From assembly GCA_015478655.1 (NCBI GenBank), contig JADMIJ010000008.1, forward strand, positions 1 through 64,000: a DNA stretch of 64,000 nt. Reading direction: 5' to 3'. How positions within the stretch are numbered: the first letter of the stretch is position 1; each line of letters starts with the position of its first letter. The notes beneath the pieces were generated by a model. The model saw only the letters and a program-made list of their open reading frames with translations, was not told where the DNA came from and ran no database searches. The translations under genes were made by a program, and so were the position numbers. Of this stretch, positions 1,635 to 11,737 are shown piece by piece. Source of the DNA: Acidimicrobiales bacterium. Lineage in GTDB: Bacteria > Actinomycetota > Acidimicrobiia > Acidimicrobiales > RAAP-2.

Positions 1635-4046
1635 TCAACTCGTCCTGGCGGTGAGGTCGTAGAGGGTCACGCCGTTGACGGTCTTGGCGGTGAAGTGGGA
1701 GCTGACCAATGACGAGATCTCCGAGGAATGCGACGTGGTGGACCGACCGCCGCCGCCGAATCCGCCGCCACCGAGTCCACCACCACCACCTATGTAGTAG
1801 TGGATCTTTCCCTCGGCCACGTACTTCTCGAACTGGGCCAGGGTCGGGGTGGGATCGCTGCCGTTGAAGCCACCGATGGCCATGACCGGATCACCGGTGG
1901 CCAGCTGATAGCCCGAGGCCGAGTTCGAACCGGTGGTGGCCGCCACCCAGGTGTACTTGGAGGCGTCCGCGCTGAGGAGGGCCGACAGCTGCTTGCCCGG
2001 GGTCGACCCATTGAGGAGGCCGCCAGCGGCAGTGCCGCCGGGTGCTCGTCCGCCACCGAATCTCCCAGCACCACCGGGCACTTGTCCGCCACCGACTCGC
2101 CCGGCACCACCGGGCACTTGTCCGCCGCCGAATGGCGCGGCTCCTCCGGGATTCTGGCCGCCACCCAGCCCTCCGTTGGCGCCGCGCCCGAGAAAGCCGG
2201 GGGGGATCCTGAGTCCACTGGGCAGTTTGGCTCCGTTGGGCAGCGTGAAGCCGGGTGGCAGGTTGATACCTTTGCCGGCGCCTCTGAACCCGCCGGCCCC
2301 GCCGAACCCGCCCCGACCACCGAACCCGAATCCCCGCCCCCCTTGGATTGGCGGACCGGCCGAGGGAATGGCCCCACTGTTCGGTGTGGCCGCGGTGGTG
2401 AGCGAGTAGGCAGCCGGCGCCGCCATGACCGAGACGATGCCGAATCCGACGAGTCCGGTAGCCAGCAGCCCGCGGGCCCGGGGCATCAGGGCGATGCCGA
2501 TGCCTGCCACCACGCCGAGCGCCAGGATCACCCATCGCAGGGCGGGGTACCACCCGGGGCTCCAACCGAGGATGACGAAGGCCCAGGCGATGCTGGCGAC
2601 GATGGCCGCGGCCAGGGCCAATCTCGGGAAGACCTCACGACGGCGCTTCCAGAGCGTGAAACCTCCCATGCCGACCAGTGCACCGATGGCCGGGGCCAGC
2701 ACGATCGTGTAGTAGGGGTGGATGATCCCGTGGGCGAAGCTGAGGACGGCTCCGGTGAGCAGGAGCCACCCGCCGAACAGCAGCATCCCGGCCCGCACCC
2801 GATCCGTGCGGGGGGCCCGACGGGTCAGCCACAGCACGGCCACCAGCCCGATGAGCGCACCGGGGATGAGCCATGAGATCTGACCGCCCATCTCGGAGAG
2901 GAACAGTCGGTTCCATCCGGTGGGACCCCACATGCTTCCCGCCCCGCCACCGCCGAGCGCTCCACCCCCGACACTGCCCGTCTCGTTGCCGGTGAGGCGG
3001 CCGAATCCGTTGTAGCCGAAGATGAGGTTGAGCAGGTTGTTGTCGGTCGATCCGCCGATGTAGGGGCGATCGGCGGCGGGCGTGAGCTGGACGGCGGCCA
3101 CCCACCACCCGCCGGCGACGGTCAGGGCCAGCCCGGAGTAGGCGACCTGGACGACTCGCCGTCCCAGCTTGGGTGGCCCGGCCAGGAGATAGACCAGGGC
3201 CAGGACGGGCATCAGGATGATCGCCTGCAGCATCTTGGTGATGAAGCCGAAGCCGACGAGCGTCCCGGCCAGCACCATCCACCGGGTGCGGCCACCTTCG
3301 ACGGCGCGGATGGTGGCGTAGGCCGCGCCGGTGAGGAGCAGGGTCAGCAGCGCGTCGGGGTTGTTGAACCGGAACATGAGCACGGCCACCGGCGTCAAGG
3401 CGGTCACGGCGCCGGCCAGAAGGGCCGCTCCGGGCGAGAACCACCTGCGCACGGTCACGAAGAGCAGGCCGACCGTGGCCACACCCTCGAGGGCCTGAGG
3501 CACCAGGATGCTCCAGGCGTTGACGCCGAACAACCGGGCGGAGATCTCCATGACCCAGAGCGAGGCCGGCGGTTTGTCGACGGTGATGAAGTTCGACGCA
3601 TCGGACGACCCGAAGAAGAAGGCCTTCCAGCTCTTGGTTCCGGCCTGGACGGCCGCGGAGTAGAAGCTGTTGCCCCACCCGGACTGACCGAGACCCCAGA
3701 TATAGAGGAACCCGGTGCCGAACAGCAGGACCAGCAGAGCGGGGCGGGCCCAGGCCGGGTCCTGGGGCCGGCCCCGGACCGCTCGTGCGAGCCGACCGGA
3801 CGGAGAGGTCGGGCCGGGTGGATCGGTGGGGGAGGCGTACGACGTCGTGCTCTCGGCGACGACCTCGGGGTGTACACCACCGATCCCGCGTCCATCCGGA
3901 GCCCAACCGGATGGGGCACGAACGGCGGGAATCGGGTCGACGACCGTCGTACCCGTAAGCGGTAGGGCCGGCACGCCCCGGTCTGTGGTCAGACCAGCCG
4001 GTGCGGCGACCGAGTCGAAGTCATCGGCGGAATGGTCGTTGGTCAT
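1635..4046 (-). CDS. GT39 (ArnT/PMT-like) membrane glycosyltransferase with Gly-rich loop
   Basis: An 803-residue polytopic membrane protein of the ArnT/PMT family, which moves a sugar from a polyprenyl-phosphate donor to an envelope acceptor. A cytoplasmic Pro/Ser-rich N-terminus of about 100 residues precedes the first membrane helix (PALLVLLFGTGFLYIWGLG). The loop motif TVDKPPASLWVME (around residues 155-167) is typical of GT39. A dozen hydrophobic segments follow. Then comes a very Gly-rich stretch with 12-residue repeats (GGGQVPGGAGRV type), and a C-terminal globular part. The ATG at 4046 overlaps the upstream stop as ATGA and has a GAGGAAG ribosome site. The frame stays open to 4724, but that part is only the shadow of the upstream gene. 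It is probably co-transcribed with the GT2-GtrA gene, which would supply the lipid-linked sugar. Confidence 0.9.
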   Translation of the reverse strand: MTNDHSADDFDSVAAPAGLTTDRGVPALPLTGTTVVDPIPAVRAPSGWAPDGRGIGGVHPEVVAESTTSYASPTDPPGPTSPSGRLARAVRGRPQDPAWARPALLVLLFGTGFLYIWGLGQSGWGNSFYSAAVQAGTKSWKAFFFGSSDASNFITVDKPPASLWVMEISARLFGVNAWSILVPQALEGVATVGLLFVTVRRWFSPGAALLAGAVTALTPVAVLMFRFNNPDALLTLLLTGAAYATIRAVEGGRTRWMVLAGTLVGFGFITKMLQAIILMPVLALVYLLAGPPKLGRRVVQVAYSGLALTVAGGWWVAAVQLTPAADRPYIGGSTDNNLLNLIFGYNGFGRLTGNETGSVGGGALGGGGAGSMWGPTGWNRLFLSEMGGQISWLIPGALIGLVAVLWLTRRAPRTDRVRAGMLLFGGWLLLTGAVLSFAHGIIHPYYTIVLAPAIGALVGMGGFTLWKRRREVFPRLALAAAIVASIAWAFVILGWSPGWYPALRWVILALGVVAGIGIALMPRARGLLATGLVGFGIVSVMAAPAAYSLTTAATPNSGAIPSAGPPIQGGRGFGFGGRGGFGGAGGFRGAGKGINLPPGFTLPNGAKLPSGLRIPPGFLGRGANGGLGGGQNPGGAAPFGGGQVPGGAGRVGGGQVPGGAGRFGGGRAPGGTAAGGLLNGSTPGKQLSALLSADASKYTWVAATTGSNSASGYQLATGDPVMAIGGFNGSDPTPTLAQFEKYVAEGKIHYYIGGGGGLGGGGFGGGGRSTTSHSSEISSLVSSHFTAKTVNGVTLYDLTARTS
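2068..2126 (-). repeat. tandem 36-bp repeat coding for Gly-rich loop
   Basis: A 23-base block (starting gcaccaccgggcacttgt on the plus strand) occurs identically at 2068-2090 and 2104-2126, a 36-base period. It encodes the 12-residue repeat GGGQVPGGAG(R) in the Gly-rich extracytoplasmic part of the GT39 protein. More degenerate copies lie on either side. Copy number could vary by slippage. Confidence 0.7.
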
Positions 4047-5449
4047 GATGGCTTCCTCATCATCTGGGTGGGCACTCCCTGGTGGTCGGTTGGAGCCGGC
4101 GCATCTGCCACAGGCGCCGTTAGGGTCCGGAAAGCGGGTCGGAATACCCAGGTGCGGAGGATGCCGAAGCGGATGGCGGCACCACCGAGGTTGGCGACGG
4201 TCACCGCCAACAGTTGGGGGAGGAGCGCCCTCAGTCCGGCGGCCCGGGTAAGGGCCAGTGCACCCGTGGTCAATGCCAGGCTGATTCCGAGCAGGGCGGC
4301 GGCGGTCCCCCAACGATGCCGGCGATCGAGGCCATGACGGGCGGTGACCGCCAATCCGCGGTGGGCCGCAGTATTGCCGAGGCTGCACATGGCGATAGCC
4401 AGCGTGTTGGCCGCAAAGGCGCCCAGTGCGGGCTCGAGGGCGGCGAACAGCCCGACGTAGGCAAGCGTGCTGACGGCACCGACCCCCGCGAACCGGAAGA
4501 GCTCGTCGGCGGAGATCTGGGGATCGGGATCGCCAGTGGCACCGGAACCGGTACCCGAACCATCTACCCCCGGATTGATACGCGGAGAGCATCGGCCAAT
4601 GGACGTCGAGCCGGCATGGTCGGTCGGGGCGGCCTCGCTCCTTCTGGGTGACCCGACGGTGGCCGGCGGAGGGGCCGGCTGCCGCGCGGCGCGCCGCCTG
4701 GCGGTGGGACCGAGCAAGCGCCACACCCCGTGCAAGTCCGTCAAGGCAGTGGTGAGCACCTCAACACGCGAATCAGTGTCGTCGACCCAGTCGACCGGGA
4801 CCTCGTGGATGCGGAGCCCGACGCGCTGGGCCGTCACCAAGAGCTCGGTATCGAAGAACCACTCGTTGTCCTCCACCAGAGGGAGAAGCTCGGCGGCCGC
4901 GTTGCGGCGCAGGGCCTTGAAGCCGCATTGGGCATCGGTGCAATCACTTCGAAGGGCTGATCGAAGCAGGAGGTTGTAGCTACGCGAGATGAGCTCCCGT
5001 CGAGCTCCTCGGACCACGTGGGCGCCCGGCGCCAGTCGGGTCCCGATGGCCACGTCGCTGTGGCCCGAGAGCAACGGTGCGACCAACGGCAGCAACGCGT
5101 CCAGGCCGGTGGACAGGTCGACGTCCATGTAGGACACCACGGTGGCGGTACTCTCCGACCACGCGGCGCGCAAGGCCCGACCCCGCCCCTTCTGGTCCAG
5201 ATGGAGGACTCGCACGCCCGGTTGAGTGGCGGCGAGGTCGTCGGCGATCTCCGAGGTTCCGTCGGTGCTGGCGTTGTCGGCGATGGTGATGGACGTGACG
5301 AACGGGAAGGACGAATCGAGGTAGGTGCGGAGGGCCGTGATGCTCGCAGCCAGCTGTTGGGACTCGTTGTAGACGGGGACCACGATGTCCACATCCAAGG
5401 TCGTCTGAGTCCAGTCGCCATCGACTTGGGCCAGTTGGGTGACGCTCAT
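4043..5449 (-). CDS. GT2 glycosyltransferase fused to GtrA-like membrane domain
   Basis: A 468-residue two-part protein. Residues of about 15-250 are a GT-A fold family 2 glycosyltransferase of the dolichyl/polyprenyl-phosphate sugar synthase type: VVPVYNESQQL, then the metal-binding DVDLSTG and QCGFKALRR. A Pro/Ser-rich linker follows. The last 150 residues or so form a GtrA-like domain with four hydrophobic segments (FRFAGVGAVSTLAYVGLFAAL onward), proposed to flip polyprenyl-P-sugar. It would make and present the donor for the GT39 enzyme just downstream (ATGA overlap). The start at 5449 lacks a strong ribosome site, so another start is possible. A PhoP-like box lies 45 bases upstream. Confidence 0.88.
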   Translation of the reverse strand: MSVTQLAQVDGDWTQTTLDVDIVVPVYNESQQLAASITALRTYLDSSFPFVTSITIADNASTDGTSEIADDLAATQPGVRVLHLDQKGRGRALRAAWSESTATVVSYMDVDLSTGLDALLPLVAPLLSGHSDVAIGTRLAPGAHVVRGARRELISRSYNLLLRSALRSDCTDAQCGFKALRRNAAAELLPLVEDNEWFFDTELLVTAQRVGLRIHEVPVDWVDDTDSRVEVLTTALTDLHGVWRLLGPTARRRAARQPAPPPATVGSPRRSEAAPTDHAGSTSIGRCSPRINPGVDGSGTGSGATGDPDPQISADELFRFAGVGAVSTLAYVGLFAALEPALGAFAANTLAIAMCSLGNTAAHRGLAVTARHGLDRRHRWGTAAALLGISLALTTGALALTRAAGLRALLPQLLAVTVANLGGAAIRFGILRTWVFRPAFRTLTAPVADAPAPTDHQGVPTQMMRKPS

Positions 5450-5493
5450 GGCGCTGACTGTGCCGGTTGAGAATCGGTTTGAAATGAGACCCA

Positions 5494-5511
5494 GCTGTGA
5501 GCCGGATGAGA
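5494..5511 (-). promoter_or_regulatory. PhoP-box-like direct repeat before GT2-GtrA gene
   Basis: GCTGTGA GCCG GATGAGA: the first 7-mer matches the half-site in front of the response-regulator gene exactly, including the next four bases, and the second 7-mer matches at 5 of 7. The 7-4-7 spacing is that of the M. tuberculosis PhoP box (TCACAGC repeats). Regulation of the two glycosyltransferase genes by the adjacent response regulator is inferred. Confidence 0.5.
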
Positions 5512-5613: not shown

Positions 5614-7155
5614 TCAAGTCGGCGGAGCCGAATGGCCGGTCCCTGGGTAGTCCGGTTCCACATCCACGGCGGGGGGAGCCGTGGGCAGGTGCACGGTGAA
5701 GGTGGTGCCCGCACCGGGTCGGCTCTCGGCGGACACGCGGCCACCGTGATTGGCCACGATGGCACTGACGATGGACAGTCCGAGTCCGGCGCCACCGTGC
5801 ACCCGCGACCGGCTCGGGTCGGAGCGGTAGAACCGCTCGAAGATGTGCTCGGCCTCCTCTGGCTCCATGCCCGGACCGGTGTCGGCGATGGTGATGACCG
5901 CCCCACTCTCCTCCTTGGCCACGTCGACCCGGGCTGACGTGCCAGCCGGCGTGTGGGCGCGCACGTTCCCCAACAGGTTGTCCACGACCTGCCGCAGGCT
6001 GGTGGCATCCCCGATGATCTCGATCGGCTCGGAGGCTTCGAACCGCAGGGGCCATGCCGGGCCGACGGCAGCGGCCGTCTTGACGGCTTCGGCGCACAGC
6101 GCCACCAGGTCCACAGAACGTTGCTCCATCGGCCGCCCTTCGTCCAGCCGGGCCAGGAGCAGCAGATCGGCAACCAGGTGCTCCATCCGGTCCGTCTCCG
6201 TTCGTATTCCGTCCATCACCCGCCCGAGGTCCTCCGTGTGCTCGGAAGCGCCGCGCCCGAACAGCTCGGCATAGGCGGAGACGGCGGCGATCGGGGTACG
6301 GAGTTCGTGCGAAGCGTCGGCCACGAACCGCCTGAGTCGTTGTTCCGACGCCTGGAGACGGCGTTCGGAGGACACACGGGCACTGAAGGCGGCTTCGATG
6401 CGCGAGAGCATCACGTTGAGGGTGCGGGCCAGGCGGCCCACCTCGGTCGAGTCGTTCTCACCGGGGACCCGCTGGGTGAGGTCGCCGGCGGCGATGGACT
6501 CTGCTGACCGCTCCATATCGCGCAGCGGACGGAGTCCGACGCGGACCAGCCAGAAGCCGCCGAGGACGGCCAGGACCACCGCGCCGCCTGTCACGGCCAG
6601 CTCGATGAGCAGAAGTTGGTGCAGGGTGCTGCCGGTGTCGCTCAAGGGTTGGGCGACGATGAGCAGGTCGCCGTCCTTCAGCGTGGAGGCGCGCACCCGA
6701 AAGGAGGGCCCACCGTTCTGGGTGGCCGGCGCCGTGAAGTATGCGACCTGGGCGCCGTCAGGGGCCGTCGAGAACCCGGTGATGGTCGTGGGCAGGCGCG
6801 GCGTGTAGGCCTTGCCGTCCAGGTAGGCCGGGCAGCTCTGCGAGTTGACCACCGCACCCTTCGGAGACCGCACTTCGACCGCGCCGAACTGGAAGGCGTT
6901 GGAAGGCCGGCCGGCGTCCTCGGGCGCGGGAGGGACTGCACCGCCTCCGCCCGGCCCGAACGGACCGGCGCCGCAAAACAGTGGCCTCCCGCTGTTGAGC
7001 TGGTGCTCATTGGCCTGGTGGTAGACGTCGAGCTGCTGGTCCACCCGTTGGTACAAGAACGACTGCAATGCGGAGTAGGTGGCCACGTCGGCGATCACCA
7101 GCGCCGCCAGGGCGATGACGCCGATGGCCACCAGAAGACGGGTCCGAAGCGACAT
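5614..7155 (-). CDS. sensor histidine kinase, PhoR-like
   Basis: A 513-residue membrane sensor kinase. Membrane helix 1 is at about residues 7-27, the extracytoplasmic sensor domain at about 30-178, and membrane helix 2 at about 180-207, with a HAMP domain after it. The HisKA box is ADASHELRTPIAAVSAYAE, with the phosphorylated His at residue 283. The ATPase domain follows with the N box (VVDNLLGNVRAHT), DTGPGME and GAGLGLSIV. The sensor domain is rich in Gly and Pro and has two cysteines (around residues 61 and 108) that might form a disulfide. The start lies 3 bases after the response-regulator stop, so the two are one transcription unit. The stimulus is unknown. Confidence 0.95.
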   Translation of the reverse strand: MSLRTRLLVAIGVIALAALVIADVATYSALQSFLYQRVDQQLDVYHQANEHQLNSGRPLFCGAGPFGPGGGGAVPPAPEDAGRPSNAFQFGAVEVRSPKGAVVNSQSCPAYLDGKAYTPRLPTTITGFSTAPDGAQVAYFTAPATQNGGPSFRVRASTLKDGDLLIVAQPLSDTGSTLHQLLLIELAVTGGAVVLAVLGGFWLVRVGLRPLRDMERSAESIAAGDLTQRVPGENDSTEVGRLARTLNVMLSRIEAAFSARVSSERRLQASEQRLRRFVADASHELRTPIAAVSAYAELFGRGASEHTEDLGRVMDGIRTETDRMEHLVADLLLLARLDEGRPMEQRSVDLVALCAEAVKTAAAVGPAWPLRFEASEPIEIIGDATSLRQVVDNLLGNVRAHTPAGTSARVDVAKEESGAVITIADTGPGMEPEEAEHIFERFYRSDPSRSRVHGGAGLGLSIVSAIVANHGGRVSAESRPGAGTTFTVHLPTAPPAVDVEPDYPGTGHSAPPT

Positions 7156-7158
7156 CCC

Positions 7159-7860
7159 TCAATCCGCAGACGGCTCACGGAGGGCGTAGCCCACCAGGCG
7201 CACAGTGTGGATGACGGGGGGACCCGCCGCCTCGAGCTTCTTGCGCAGGTAGCTGACGTAGGTCTCGACCACGTTGCCGTCCCCGCCGAAGTCGTAGTGC
7301 CACACGTGGTCGAGGATCTGGGACTTGGACAGCACATGGCGGGGATTGAGGAGGAAGAACCGGAGCAGGTTGAACTCGGTGGCGGTCAACGAGATGGACT
7401 GGCCGGCCCGGGTCACCTCATGGGCGTTCTCGTCCATCTCGATGTCGGCGAACCGGAGGATGCCCTCATCCTCGGGTTCGCTCCCGATGCGCCGCAGGAT
7501 GGCGTGCACTCGGGCCACCACCTCAGCCAGGGCGAACGGCTTGGTCACGTAGTCGTCGCCGCCGACGGTGAGTCCGGCCACCTTGTCGTCGACCCCATCC
7601 CGGGCGGTCAGGAAGAGGATGGGCACCCGGAGCCCGTCGGCCCGCAGCCTTCGGGTGACCTCCAGGCCGTCCAGGTCCGGCAGCATCACGTCGAGGACGA
7701 TGAGATCGGGAGGAGTCTCCTGGGCGGCGGCGAGGGCCAGACGCCCGTTGACCGCCTCGTCGACCCCGAACCCCTCATAGCGGAGCGAGGTGGCCACGGC
7801 GTCGACGATGGAGGGCTCGTCATCGACGACCAGGATGCGCTGGCTTCGGGTGGGCTCCAC
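7159..7860 (-). CDS. OmpR/PhoB-family response regulator, PhoP-like
   Basis: A 233-residue DNA-binding response regulator. The receiver domain holds the acidic pair (VVDDEPS), phospho-acceptor Asp57 (IVLDVMLP), Thr in FLTARD and Lys in YVTKPF. The C-terminal winged helix (SLTATEFNLLRFFLLNP, then LDHVWHYDFGGDGNVVETYV) is close to mycobacterial PhoP as I know it (ILDHVWRYDFGGDVNVVESYV). It is the first gene of the unit and pairs with the kinase 3 bases downstream. Repeats matching the PhoP box lie 98-157 bases upstream of its start, so autoregulation is likely. The ribosome site is GGAGGAG before the ATG. I avoid the symbol phoP because the true orthologue cannot be proved here. Confidence 0.95.
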   Translation of the reverse strand: MEPTRSQRILVVDDEPSIVDAVATSLRYEGFGVDEAVNGRLALAAAQETPPDLIVLDVMLPDLDGLEVTRRLRADGLRVPILFLTARDGVDDKVAGLTVGGDDYVTKPFALAEVVARVHAILRRIGSEPEDEGILRFADIEMDENAHEVTRAGQSISLTATEFNLLRFFLLNPRHVLSKSQILDHVWHYDFGGDGNVVETYVSYLRKKLEAAGPPVIHTVRLVGYALREPSAD

Positions 7861-7957
7861 GTTGCTCCTCCTCCTGGGCTGGGCATGGCATCCACCTGCG
7901 GTTTACCGGTGGATGCCACCAGCATCGCGCCGGGGTGTGCATCCCGGGTGTGACTCA

Positions 7958-7975
7958 GCTGTGAGCCGGCTGTGA
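7958..7975. promoter_or_regulatory. PhoP-box-like direct repeat (site 1)
   Basis: GCTGTGAGCCGGCTGTGA: two identical 7-mers GCTGTGA separated by four bases. Read on the other strand this is TCACAGC-N4-TCACAGC, the direct repeat known for M. tuberculosis PhoP. It lies in the 273-base divergent region between the response-regulator gene and the redox operon, 98 bases from the regulator start. Confidence 0.72.
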
Positions 7976-7999
7976 GGGAGCGTCGGACGAAATTTCGAT

Positions 8000-8017
8000 T
8001 CACAGGAAGGTCACAGC
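8000..8017. promoter_or_regulatory. PhoP-box-like direct repeat (site 2)
   Basis: TCACAGGAAGGTCACAGC: a second 7-4-7 direct repeat, 13 of 14 half-site bases matching, in the opposite orientation to site 1 and 24 bases from it. It sits 117 bases before the start of the Ser/Thr-rich gene that heads the redox operon. The divergent arrangement suggests one site per promoter. Confidence 0.7.
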
Positions 8018-8133
8018 GGGGATGACGCTGACTCTGTTGGCCCGTGTGTGCAATGACCGTCACGAGAGGGCGGCGATGAAGTCCCGCCCGATGAGACGGA
8101 TTCTTGACCGGCATCCCAGCGAAAGGTGATGAC

Positions 8134-8495
8134 ATGGCACACCAGGCCCGCCAGGACAAGCGCACCTCCCAGCCCGCCGCACGGGCCCGCAACCGGGCCA
8201 TGGCAGGGTCCGACGGACCACCGGCGCCGTTGGCATCGCCGCTGTCGCACTCGCCGTCGGCCTCGGCATCCTCGTGGCGTCCGAAACCACGGCTCACTCC
8301 TCGGCCTCCACCACCACGCCCACCAGCTCGGTCTCCACCCCGGCCACATCGGCCTCCTCGAGCTCGTCGTCCTCCTCGAACTCGTCGTCGGTCTCGTCGA
8401 ACTCGACGGCGACGACCACCACTCCAACAACTACCGCCACCACCACCCCCACGACAACCAAGGCCAAGCCGACCACGGTGTCGGGGCAGTCATGA
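8134..8495 (+). CDS. small Ser/Thr-rich membrane-anchored protein, apparent frameshift
   Basis: The ATG at 8134 has an AAAGGTGAT ribosome site and opens a basic N-terminus (MAHQARQDKRTSQPAARARN). That frame gives no membrane helix. Shifted by one base, the DNA from about 8208 reads VRRTTGAVGIAAVALAVGLG and then a long Ser/Thr/Pro tail ending at 8495. The best explanation is a frameshift, real or from sequencing, between about 8200 and 8230. Repaired, it would be a cytoplasmic basic tail, one membrane helix and a low-complexity extracellular tail of about 75 residues. It heads the ApbE/ferric-reductase operon and its stop overlaps the apbE start (ATGA). In similar operons I would expect an FMN-binding domain after such a linker; none is seen. 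A shorter GTG start at 8274 would give only the tail. Confidence 0.5.
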
Positions 8496-9526
8496 CGAAC
8501 GCGGTGGAGGAGATGGCCATCGTTGCTGGGCGCGGCGCCCAGGCCATCGGCACCCGATCGATGCGGGCCATCGGCACCACCGCTGAGGTGGCTGTGACGG
8601 CGGCCGACCGTGCCGACGAGGCGATGACCCTGTTGGCCGACGACCTGCGGTCCATCGACGCCGCCTGCAGCCGGTTCCGCTCCGATTCGGAGCTCCGACA
8701 GCTCGAGGTGAGCAGTGAAGGTCGGCCGGTGCCTGTCAGCCCCTTGTTGTTCGACGCCCTCGAGACGGCGCGGGTGGTCGCCGTCCAGACGGCCGGCATC
8801 GTCGATCCGACCATCGGTTCGGCGCTCATCGAGCTCGGCTACGACCGGGACTTCGACACCATCGCCGCTGACGACCTCGCCCCCGACTTTCGCGCCGAAC
8901 CCGCTCCCGGCTGGTGGCTGATCGAGCTCAACGGCGCTGATCGCACCGTGTCGATCCCCGCCGGGGTGCACGTCGACCTCGGGGCCACCGCCAAGGCGTT
9001 CGCCGCCGACCGGGCAGCCCAGCGAATTGCCGCCACGCTCGGGTGCGGGGCGCTGGTGAACCTCGGTGGCGATGTTGCCGTTGCCGGCCAGTGCCCGTCG
9101 GACGGGTGGGCCATTGGCATCGCCGCAGAGTCCACCTCGGCCCTCTGTGAGGTGGATCAGGTGGTGACCCTCGTCAGCGGGGGCCTGGCCACGTCGGGGA
9201 CCACGGCCCGCTCGTGGGTCCGCAACGGTCGCACCGTCCATCACATCGTCGATCCGTGGACGGGTGATGCTGCTCCGGCCGTCTGGGCACTGGTGTCGAT
9301 CACGGCACCGAGTTGCGCGCAAGCCAATGCCTGGAGCACCGCCGCCATTGTGTGGGGTTTGGATGCCATCGGGAACCTGGCCGCCATCGGCGTCCCAGCT
9401 CGCCTGGTCCATGCCGATGGCGCCATCGTCCGCCTCGGGGGTTGGCCTCCCGCCGTCGACGACCTCGCCGGTCCTGGCAGCCACGAGCTCCTCAACTACC
9501 ACCTCGACACCGGGACGGCGTGCTGA
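8492..9526 (+). CDS. apbE: FAD:protein FMN transferase (ApbE family)
   Basis: A 344-residue enzyme of the ApbE family, which cuts FAD and links FMN covalently to a Thr/Ser of a target protein. Visible family motifs are SMRAIGTTAEVAV near the N-terminus, VDLGATAKAFAADRAA, ALVNLGGDVAVAG, and HHIVDPWTGD. The C-terminal ANAWSTAAIVWG carries the metal-site Thr; Asn replaces the Asp seen in many homologues. No signal peptide or lipobox is visible, so the enzyme appears cytoplasmic as sequenced. It starts at ATG 8492, inside ATGA with the preceding gene, and its stop overlaps the next start (TGATG). The protein it would flavinylate is not evident in the operon. Confidence 0.92.
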   Translation: MTNAVEEMAIVAGRGAQAIGTRSMRAIGTTAEVAVTAADRADEAMTLLADDLRSIDAACSRFRSDSELRQLEVSSEGRPVPVSPLLFDALETARVVAVQTAGIVDPTIGSALIELGYDRDFDTIAADDLAPDFRAEPAPGWWLIELNGADRTVSIPAGVHVDLGATAKAFAADRAAQRIAATLGCGALVNLGGDVAVAGQCPSDGWAIGIAAESTSALCEVDQVVTLVSGGLATSGTTARSWVRNGRTVHHIVDPWTGDAAPAVWALVSITAPSCAQANAWSTAAIVWGLDAIGNLAAIGVPARLVHADGAIVRLGGWPPAVDDLAGPGSHELLNYHLDTGTAC

Positions 9527-10215
9527 TGTTGGCCACGTCGTCCACCGTTCTCTGGTACACCACCCGAGCCACCGGAGTCGTCGCCCTGTTGTTGTTGACC
9601 GGCACCATGGTGCTCGGGATCCTCACCGCCGGACGGGTGAGGACAACGTCGTGGCCTGCTTTCGCCCAGGCGGACCTGCATAGACGGGTCTCGCTAATGG
9701 CCATGGTGTTTCTGGCCTTCCACGTGCTCACCTCGGTCCTCGATACGTATGTCAACGTGGGCTGGGCTGCCATCGTCGTACCCTTCGCCTCTCCCTACCG
9801 CCCGGTGTGGACCGGGCTGGGAACGGTGGGTGTCGACTTGATCCTCGCCGTCGCCCTATCCAGCGCCCTGCGCCAACGCATCAGTGCCGCGACCTGGCGG
9901 GGAATCCACTGGCTGGCCTACGGGAGCTGGCCGGTGGCCATGGCCCATTCACTGGGCATGGGAACCGATGCCTCACGTCTCTGGATGGACGGACTGGCCG
10001 TGGTGTGCTCGCTGGCCGTTCTGGCCTCTCTGGCCTGGAGGATCAGTGACCACCGGAAGAACAGGGAGCGAGCGGTCGAGCTCGGTGCCCTCACCCGGGC
10101 CGTCCCCGCTCTCCGCGGGCCGCGCCGAAGGGCACAGCTGCCGTCGCGGCCCACCTCGGCTCAGCCCCGGCGCGTGGACAGCGCCTCCCGAATTCTCGAG
10201 AAGGAGCGTTCATGA
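9526..10215 (+). CDS. ferric-reductase-like transmembrane protein
   Basis: A 229-residue membrane protein with about six hydrophobic helices, of the ferric-reductase-like transmembrane domain family (haem-binding electron carriers such as MsrQ and FRE/NOX cores). Histidines lie in membrane segments that could ligate haem: MAMVFLAFHVLTSV, ATWRGIHWLAYGSW and WPVAMAHSLGMG. The C-terminus is basic and cytoplasmic. Start ATG 9526 overlaps the apbE stop and the end overlaps the next gene (ATGA), so all are translated together. It probably carries electrons across the membrane from the NuoF-like protein and ferredoxin to an outside acceptor; direction and acceptor are inferred. Confidence 0.85.
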   Translation: MLATSSTVLWYTTRATGVVALLLLTGTMVLGILTAGRVRTTSWPAFAQADLHRRVSLMAMVFLAFHVLTSVLDTYVNVGWAAIVVPFASPYRPVWTGLGTVGVDLILAVALSSALRQRISAATWRGIHWLAYGSWPVAMAHSLGMGTDASRLWMDGLAVVCSLAVLASLAWRISDHRKNRERAVELGALTRAVPALRGPRRRAQLPSRPTSAQPRRVDSASRILEKERS

Positions 10216-11513
10216 GCACCATGACCCTGGCCTGCGCCCAGCGGATGCTCCCGGTCGGGCCCGGGGGCAGACCCGCCCCCGACCTGGCCGGGCACCTGGC
10301 CGCCCACGGCCCCCTCGCCATCCCCATCCGGAATGATCCCGGCTGGAAGGCAGCGGTGCGCCGGGCCGTCGCCGAGTCGGGGCTGCTCGGCCGGGGTGGA
10401 GCGGGATTTCCCGCCGCGGCGAAGTGGGACGCCATCGACGGCGGCCGGCATCGGCCTCTGGTCGTGGTCAATGCCATGGAGGGTGAGCCGGCCAGTGCCA
10501 AGGACCGGGTGCTGCTCGGCCGGGCGCCCCATCTGGTCCTCGATGGGGCGGAGGTGGCCGCGGCGGTGATCGGCGCGTCCGAGATCGCAATCTGCGTCGC
10601 CGACCACAACGACCCGGCCGCGGCCTCGATCGAGGCCGCCATCGCCGAGCGCAGGCGGGCCGGAATGTCGGTGCGTCGCATCTCGGTGCGCCGCCCACCG
10701 GGCGGGTATGTCACCGGAGAGGAGTCCTCGCTGGTGTCGTGGCTCAGCAGTGGCCGGGCGTTGCCGTTCCTCCGAACGGACAAGTCGGTGCCCGTCACCG
10801 TTGGTCGCGGCCCGGCTCTGGTCCACAACGCCGAGACCCTCTCCCAGGTGGCCCTCATCGCTCGACACGGCCCCGCCTGGTCCCGCGGCCTGGGTACAAC
10901 TGAAGCGCCTGGCTCCACCCTGGTCACCGTGACCGGTGCCGTGTCCTCTCCGGGGGTGCTCGAGGTGGAGCTGGGAACCCCGGTGGCCGACATCGTGGCG
11001 CGGGCCGGCGCCGACACCGAGCTGTCGGCGGTGCTGCTCGGCGGCTATGGAGGTGCCTGGCTCGATGCGGCCCAGCTGGCCGTACCGTATGCTCCCGGAC
11101 CCCTCAGCGCCGCGGGCGCCAGCCAAGGAGTGGGCGTCATCATTGCGCTCCCCAGGACGTCATGCGGCGTGGCGGAGACGGCCAGGATCGTCCGCTACAT
11201 GGCGGGGGAGAGTGTCGGCCAGTGCGGGCCCTGCATCTTCGGGTTGCCCGCCATCGCCGACGATCTCGAACAGCTTCGGAGCGGTCGCGCCGACGCCGGC
11301 GTGGTCGACCGCATCCAGATGCGAGCGGGCACCGTGGAGGGACGAGGAGCGTGTCGTCACCCCGATGGCGTGGTCCGTCTGGTGAGAAGTGCGTTGGTGG
11401 TGTTCGCCGCCGACACTCTGGACCACGCCCGAGGTCGTCCCTGCTCCGGACGTGCCTCCCCGACGGTGTTGAGCTTTCCCGAAGGCGCGGCCGGCGCACG
11501 GCGGTCGGCATGA
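10212..11513 (+). CDS. NuoF-like (51-kDa subunit family) NAD(P)H-binding flavoprotein
   Basis: A 433-residue homologue of the FMN- and NADH-binding complex I subunit. The nucleotide site shows as GRGGAGFPAAAKW and VVNAMEGEPASAKDR, and the SLBB-type segment as TLVTVTGAVSSPGVLEVELG. The C-terminal iron-sulfur region is ESVGQCGPCIFGLPA plus GRGACRHPDG. Where NuoF has SCGxCxxC, the first Cys is Val here, so the 4Fe-4S cluster may have only three Cys ligands. There is no signal or membrane segment, so the protein is cytoplasmic. Its place between the membrane protein and ferredoxin suggests it feeds electrons from NAD(P)H into the chain. Both ends use ATGA overlaps. Confidence 0.87.
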   Translation: MSTMTLACAQRMLPVGPGGRPAPDLAGHLAAHGPLAIPIRNDPGWKAAVRRAVAESGLLGRGGAGFPAAAKWDAIDGGRHRPLVVVNAMEGEPASAKDRVLLGRAPHLVLDGAEVAAAVIGASEIAICVADHNDPAAASIEAAIAERRRAGMSVRRISVRRPPGGYVTGEESSLVSWLSSGRALPFLRTDKSVPVTVGRGPALVHNAETLSQVALIARHGPAWSRGLGTTEAPGSTLVTVTGAVSSPGVLEVELGTPVADIVARAGADTELSAVLLGGYGGAWLDAAQLAVPYAPGPLSAAGASQGVGVIIALPRTSCGVAETARIVRYMAGESVGQCGPCIFGLPAIADDLEQLRSGRADAGVVDRIQMRAGTVEGRGACRHPDGVVRLVRSALVVFAADTLDHARGRPCSGRASPTVLSFPEGAAGARRSA

Positions 11514-11737
11514 CGCCGGCGCGCCGGATCGGAGTGCGGCTGCGGGTCGACCCGGTCGCTTGTGACGCCTATGGGTACTGTGCCGAACTGCTTCCTGAGC
11601 GAGTCACATTGGATGAGTGGGGCTACCCGCGCGTCGACGGCACTCCCGTCGACGGGGCCCTGGTCGAGCTCGCCACCAGAGCTGCGGCTGAATGCCCGCG
11701 CCGGGCGGTCCTGCTGGAGAGGGTGACGGTGGCCTGA
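11510..11737 (+). CDS. small ferredoxin, single-cluster type
   Basis: A 75-residue acidic protein of the small ferredoxin type often seen with P450 or reductase systems. The cysteines are CDAYGYC (C-x5-C) near residue 18 and a distal CP (ECPRRAV), three in all, which fits a 3Fe-4S cluster or a 4Fe-4S cluster with one non-Cys ligand. It starts in ATGA with the NuoF-like gene and ends the operon. It likely relays electrons between the flavoprotein and the membrane protein. Confidence 0.85.
   Translation: MTPARRIGVRLRVDPVACDAYGYCAELLPERVTLDEWGYPRVDGTPVDGALVELATRAAAECPRRAVLLERVTVA

Follow-up and report, generated by a model that had tools for sequence, protein, structure and literature searches.

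Candidate PhoP-type operators in a regular, activator-like promoter arrangement before a two-component system, a flavin/heme redox operon and a glycosyltransferase operon in Acidimicrobiales

Background

The closest described relative of the regulatory system considered here is PhoP of Mycobacterium tuberculosis, which recognizes direct 7-4-7 repeats of the half-site TCACAGC, binds them cooperatively as a dimer, trimer or tetramer, and in its DNA complex contacts the bases through N212, V213, E215, S216, Y217 and Y220 (PDB 5ED4, PMC4832192). The M. tuberculosis protein autoregulates via direct repeats situated downstream of +1 (PMC3413638). The redox genes that adjoin the system in turn resemble flavinylation clusters that combine ApbE with MsrQ-like and NuoF-like proteins, 31 of which have been described; clusters with MsrQ-like proteins come mainly from Actinobacteria (PMC8238504). 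The published ApbE acceptor motif is [S/T]GA[S/T], the aspartate before it is dispensable, and artificial flavin tags perform best when placed at the terminus of a protein (PMC8238504, PMC12052999).

Results

The window is a stretch of 64,000 nucleotides from an Acidimicrobiales bacterium (GCA_015478655.1, contig JADMIJ010000008.1, positions 1 to 64,000). An initial annotation had described two opposed PhoP-type boxes between the start of a response-regulator gene (7860) and an apbE operon, and a re-reading of the sequence located both: the regulator-side box at 7958-7975 reads GCTGTGA-GCCG-GCTGTGA, which on the minus strand is TCACAGC-CGGC-TCACAGC with 0 mismatches, and the second, at 8000-8017 in the opposite orientation, reads TCACAGG-AAGG-TCACAGC with 1 mismatch. 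Both pairs stand as described, but the description was incomplete in that it missed a third regulator-side unit, which makes this box a triple (7947-7975, minus strand, TCACAGC-CGGC-TCACAGC-TGAG-TCACACC), and an additional box ahead of a glycosyltransferase operon (5483-5511, minus strand, TCTCATC-CGGC-TCACAGC-TGGG-TCTCATT). The elements of the three predicted promoters are as follows.

7969..7975, minus strand: regulator promoter half-site 1, TCACAGC, at about -61 to -55
7958..7964, minus strand: regulator promoter half-site 2, TCACAGC, at about -50 to -44
7947..7953, minus strand: regulator promoter half-site 3, TCACACC, at about -39 to -33, where it would replace a -35 element
7921..7926, minus strand: predicted -10 hexamer of the regulator promoter, GATGCT, 20 nt past half-site 3
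8000..8006, plus strand: redox-operon promoter half-site 1, TCACAGG
8011..8017, plus strand: redox-operon promoter half-site 2, TCACAGC
8022..8028, plus strand: degenerate third unit of the redox-operon promoter, ATGACGC, aligned in position in relatives and weakly conserved in sequence
8049..8054, plus strand: predicted -10 hexamer of the redox-operon promoter, TGCAAT, of the form T....T at exactly N20
5505..5511, minus strand: glycosyltransferase-operon promoter half-site 1, TCTCATC
5494..5500, minus strand: glycosyltransferase-operon promoter half-site 2, TCACAGC
5483..5489, minus strand: glycosyltransferase-operon promoter half-site 3, TCTCATT
5457..5462, minus strand: predicted -10 hexamer of the glycosyltransferase-operon promoter, CACAGT, with the ATG 7 nt on, a predicted leaderless start

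The genes read from the two minus-strand promoters are these.

7159..7860, minus strand: OmpR/PhoB-family response regulator, PhoP-like (PF00072 and PF00486)
5614..7155, minus strand: sensor histidine kinase (HAMP, HisKA, HATPase_c)
4043..5449, minus strand: GT2 glycosyltransferase with a GtrA-like membrane part (PF00535, PF04138; the GtrA part slightly under the Pfam cut-off)
1635..4046, minus strand: PMT/ArnT-like membrane glycosyltransferase (PMT_2, YkcB_C)

Scanning the 4.47-Mb genome (about 93% complete) for 7-4-7 repeats showed that the regulator-side minus-strand pair is the sole perfect TCACAGC-N4-TCACAGC, and the regulator-side triple the only such triple with 0 mismatches. Exact TCACAGS-N4-TCACAGS occurs in the two boxes only, and the reversed pattern has zero exact matches in the genome. 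Four more TCACAGC-N4-TCACAGC pairs have one mismatch, two of them at this locus and two intragenic; the latter were considered as further promoter boxes and rejected, as both sit within genes. A class-wide search for the exact triple was too strict to be informative, unit 2 often being CCACAG in relatives.

The initial annotation had named conservation of the repeats in related genomes as a test, and conservation among relatives proved strong for both boxes. We collected 33 upstream regions of 180 nt each from regulator orthologs of the genus, family and order (the relatives are actinobacterial as judged by protein relationships), and a pair of TCACAGS-like half-sites with a 4-nt spacer was present in 29 of them against 0.21 expected in a first-order Markov simulation, a difference that excludes chance, with the proviso that relatives of one genus are not independent samples. 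When spacers of 0-18 nt were scanned in the same 33 regions, others than 4 were found in 0-2 regions, except for 15 (22/33), which corresponds to unit 1 plus unit 3, and 17 (7/33, falling to zero at a stricter score). A motif-free count of repeated hexamers likewise returned CACAGC, TCACAG and CTCACA as the top words at periods 11 and 22, and the CACAG positions of units 1 and 2 are nearly invariant across the orthologs. In a strict scan five distant orthologs (68-75% identity) lacked the box, one of them having a box nearer the start. Among 78 named actinobacterial PhoP-like loci, scored more loosely, the 4-nt-spaced repeat lies upstream in 53, other spacers in 4-20 regions apart from 39 for spacer 15; because the repeat is enriched in this set too, it is probably old. 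The autoregulatory box that the initial annotation had implied is thus conserved before the regulator gene, with the amendment that it is a triple and is placed like an activator site.

The opposed box follows the redox operon closely. It is present in 10/10 loci in which apbE adjoins the regulator, and it is retained in two genomes (G021, G337) in which the apbE operon lies on a different contig from the regulator, while a third relocated operon (G358) carries a weaker box and a fourth (G346) has no convincing box before apbE. Where no apbE operon lies beside the regulator (G002), the opposed box is missing and the regulator's own triple is kept; where a 48-residue apbE remnant survives (G009), the opposed box is decayed. 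One further genome (G011) has a related apbE operon with no box before apbE, and a regulator ortholog was not found in that genome. At the same threshold, no box stands upstream of more remotely related apbE operons (44-48% identity), of which many adjoin an unrelated kinase.

The distance from the boxes to the predicted -10 elements is fixed at all three promoters. With the register for the search set by the boxes and not by the hexamer, the regulator promoters showed an NAnnnT hexamer exactly 20 nt after unit 3 in 26 of the 27 cases with enough sequence. The same N20 step leads at the apbE promoters to TGCAAT, TCCAAT, TGAACT, TGTGAT and similar hexamers of the form T....T, found at the 10/10 linked loci and at 3 relocated operons, that is, at 13/13 box-bearing apbE promoters. 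At the glycosyltransferase promoters it leads to CACAGT, CAGAGT, GACAGT, GAGAGT or CACCAT, and essentially all fit (for one, L058, the step was read by eye); here the start codon comes 7-11 nt past the hexamer, and therefore the transcript would be leaderless or nearly so. If the hexamer is the -10 element, the units would span about -61 to -33, an activator position, with transcription starts predicted purely from conservation.

The glycosyltransferase operon thus appears to be a third target, besides the regulator gene and the redox operon. Downstream of two PhoP orthologs, in Mycobacterium (91% identity) and Williamsia (82% identity), GT2 and PMT genes lie at a distance of about 3-5 kb, the same neighbours as at the window locus. 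Elsewhere in the genus, genomes carry single 7-4-7 boxes (L158, L159, L165) that mark possible further targets, and the genes behind them were assigned by eye to an efflux adaptor (HlyD/MacA-like), a secreted repeat protein (DUF5666-like) and an MBOAT acyltransferase.

The best solved relative of the window regulator is M. tuberculosis PhoP (E 1e-85), followed by PrrA (4e-55) and MtrA (1e-50), and the 7-4-7 repeat, which the initial annotation had given as known for mycobacterial PhoP, has indeed been published, with TCACAGC half-sites, for PhoP of M. tuberculosis (PMC4832192). At the six base-contact positions the window regulator has N, V, E, T, Y and Y, so that five of six are identical and S216 is replaced by threonine; its recognition helix NVVETYVSYLRKK matches NVVESYVSYLRRK of PhoP, while PrrA and MtrA differ, and across the regulator orthologs this helix, NVVET[YF]V, hardly varies. 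The earlier designation as PhoP-like needs a qualification as to descent: a tree of 127 rows groups the regulator with its own relatives in a separate clade (support 98/91), apart from the mycobacterial PhoP clade, and lends no support to strict PhoP orthology. We regard it as PhoP-like, a protein that would resemble PhoP in its DNA code and that the tree does not mark as a PhoP ortholog.

The locus shares with M. tuberculosis PhoP (PDB 5ED4, PMC4832192) the half-site, the strict 4-bp spacer, the direct repeat and, as predicted, autoregulation, and differs from it in the regular triple, the fixed N20 to the -10 element, the upstream, activator-type position and the predicted targets, which are flavin/heme redox genes in one operon and glycosyltransferase genes in another. 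PhoP-like regulators across Actinomycetota (the 78 named loci, L075-L152) are similar in having the upstream repeat, followed in some by GT2 and PMT genes, whereas no adjoining apbE/MsrQ-like/NuoF-like operon of the present type was found among them. In one of these, from Microbacterium (L114), an apparent FMN-binding-type protein and an apbE-like gene lie about 4.6 kb downstream of the PhoP-like regulator.

The divergent redox operon encodes, in this order, a small protein, ApbE, a PF01794-like membrane cytochrome, a NuoF-like protein and a small ferredoxin.

8134..8495, plus strand: small protein, first gene of the redox operon, with a basic N-terminus, one TM segment, a Ser/Thr/Pro linker and the C-terminus VSGQS
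8492..9526, plus strand: ApbE, FAD:protein FMN transferase, no signal peptide (PF02424, E 5e-48; motifs conserved relative to solved ApbEs)
9526..10215, plus strand: MsrQ/ferric-reductase-like transmembrane cytochrome (PF01794, E 1e-5, 26.1 bits against a cut-off of 28)
10212..11513, plus strand: NuoF-like flavoprotein (Complex1_51K, SLBB, NADH_4Fe-4S; PF10589, E 1.5e-14)
11510..11737, plus strand: putative small 3Fe-4S-type ferredoxin, from its cysteine pattern; no family match

In uniting apbE, a PF01794-type cytochrome and a NuoF-like gene it is like the described flavinylation clusters (PMC8238504). Unlike them, it contains no protein with an FMN-binding domain, its place being taken by the small Ser/Thr-rich membrane protein with a C-terminal SGQS; its ApbE lacks a signal peptide; and its promoter is under predicted two-component control. 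The FMN-binding domain PF04205 was found neither in the operon nor in the genome (about 93% complete), where no DUF2271 protein was found either, and FMN-binding domains are likewise absent in about half of the sampled family. A second apbE/cytochrome/NuoF-like operon occurs beside a different two-component system, in the same orientation, in the present genome set (L223 on G000:C88, L224, L225).

In this assembly the reading frame of the small-protein gene is interrupted once, near 8200, through either an assembly error or recent decay to a pseudogene, two cases that look alike here; copies in relatives are intact and have the basic N-terminus, one hydrophobic segment and a Ser/Thr/Pro-rich stretch. 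Their C-termini read SGQS, SGAT, SGAS, TGGS or similar, and of the 28 proteins that a script picked out upstream of apbE (L168-L196), 26 have [ST]Gx[ST] no more than 3 residues from the end. One exception (L171) ends in VSSQS and has SGQSS internally. The second apbE operons of the window's own genome and of G022 have small proteins that are exceptions to this ending, the former ending in QSTTS without the glycine motif. The C-terminal [ST]Gx[ST] resembles the ApbE flavinylation motif and may serve in nature as a flavin tag at the protein's end. Tentatively, and at somewhat less than even odds, we propose that the small protein represents an ApbE substrate of a new type. It would be a disordered, Ser/Thr-rich tether, anchored in the membrane and carrying FMN on a terminal [ST]G[QAGS][ST]; this flavin arm would swing between the heme membrane protein and acceptors on the outside, and would share its PhoP-like control with glycosyltransferases that could modify the arm. 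Caution is called for, as a Ser/Thr/Gly-rich tail can yield such a tetrapeptide by composition alone, and an ApbE without a signal peptide would, as a cytosolic enzyme, somehow have to reach an outward-facing tail. A literature search on disordered flavinylated linkers returned nothing directly on point.

Discussion

The comparative evidence supports the initial reading that PhoP-type boxes link the two-component system to the redox operon. We put the probability at roughly 0.78 that the boxes are PhoP-type activator operators, bound by a tandem dimer or trimer over -61 to -33, at three promoters. The boxes would be operators of the neighbouring PhoP-like response regulator: phosphorylated by the kinase, the regulator would assemble head to tail as a dimer or trimer on the 11-bp-spaced half-sites at about -61 to -33, would stand in for a -35 element, and would activate three operons: its own, the divergent one with the flavin/heme redox genes and, downstream, the one with the glycosyltransferase genes. 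We infer binding, phosphorylation dependence, activation over repression and a common signal alike. A literature search on PhoP activation complexes returned nothing directly on point.

That the neighbouring regulator binds the boxes and mainly represses, as negative autoregulation, might fit M. tuberculosis phoP, where the repeats lie downstream of +1 (PMC3413638); here, however, the units lie upstream, unit 3 takes the place of the -35 element and the -10 hexamer is constantly 20 nt off at three promoters, and such unit positions with a constant -10 distance are the usual arrangement of an activator, so that we consider repression unlikely. TCACAG-like words recur among the sites of other actinobacterial regulators and the genome encodes about 20 related regulators, from which it might be supposed that the main binder is another OmpR-family protein with a similar site, of the MtrA type or a PhoP-like paralog. 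This is rather less probable still, as MtrA and PrrA differ at the base-contact residues, the box fronts this very regulator in 29/33 orthologs, and the apbE operon without a box (G011) belongs to the genome in which the regulator ortholog was not found.

The facing TGTGA and TCACA words across the intergenic region could also suggest that the opposed boxes form one palindromic operator, of the CRP type (TGTGA-N6-TCACA) or as a looping element. Here, however, 25 nt separate the facing words, and in relatives the boxes lie at varying distances from each other, while the spacing within each box and from each box to its own -10 is fixed; this reading, contradicted by the variable distance, was rejected as highly improbable. 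Activation by the neighbouring PhoP-like regulator remains our preferred reading, and what would be new is PhoP-type recognition in a regular activator geometry over the regulator's own gene, a redox operon and a glycosyltransferase operon, as the sequence comparisons predict.

Conclusions

The fixed geometry of three units, 20 nt and a -10 element amounts to a rule usable for regulon prediction, and the redox operon contains what may be a minimal natural flavin carrier, a candidate that can be tested. Our results suggest that the PhoP 7-4-7 code, studied for its part in tuberculosis virulence, operates with a regular promoter geometry in distant PhoP relatives, and that in these organisms it may connect a sensor with electron transfer outside the cytosol and with glycosylation of the envelope.
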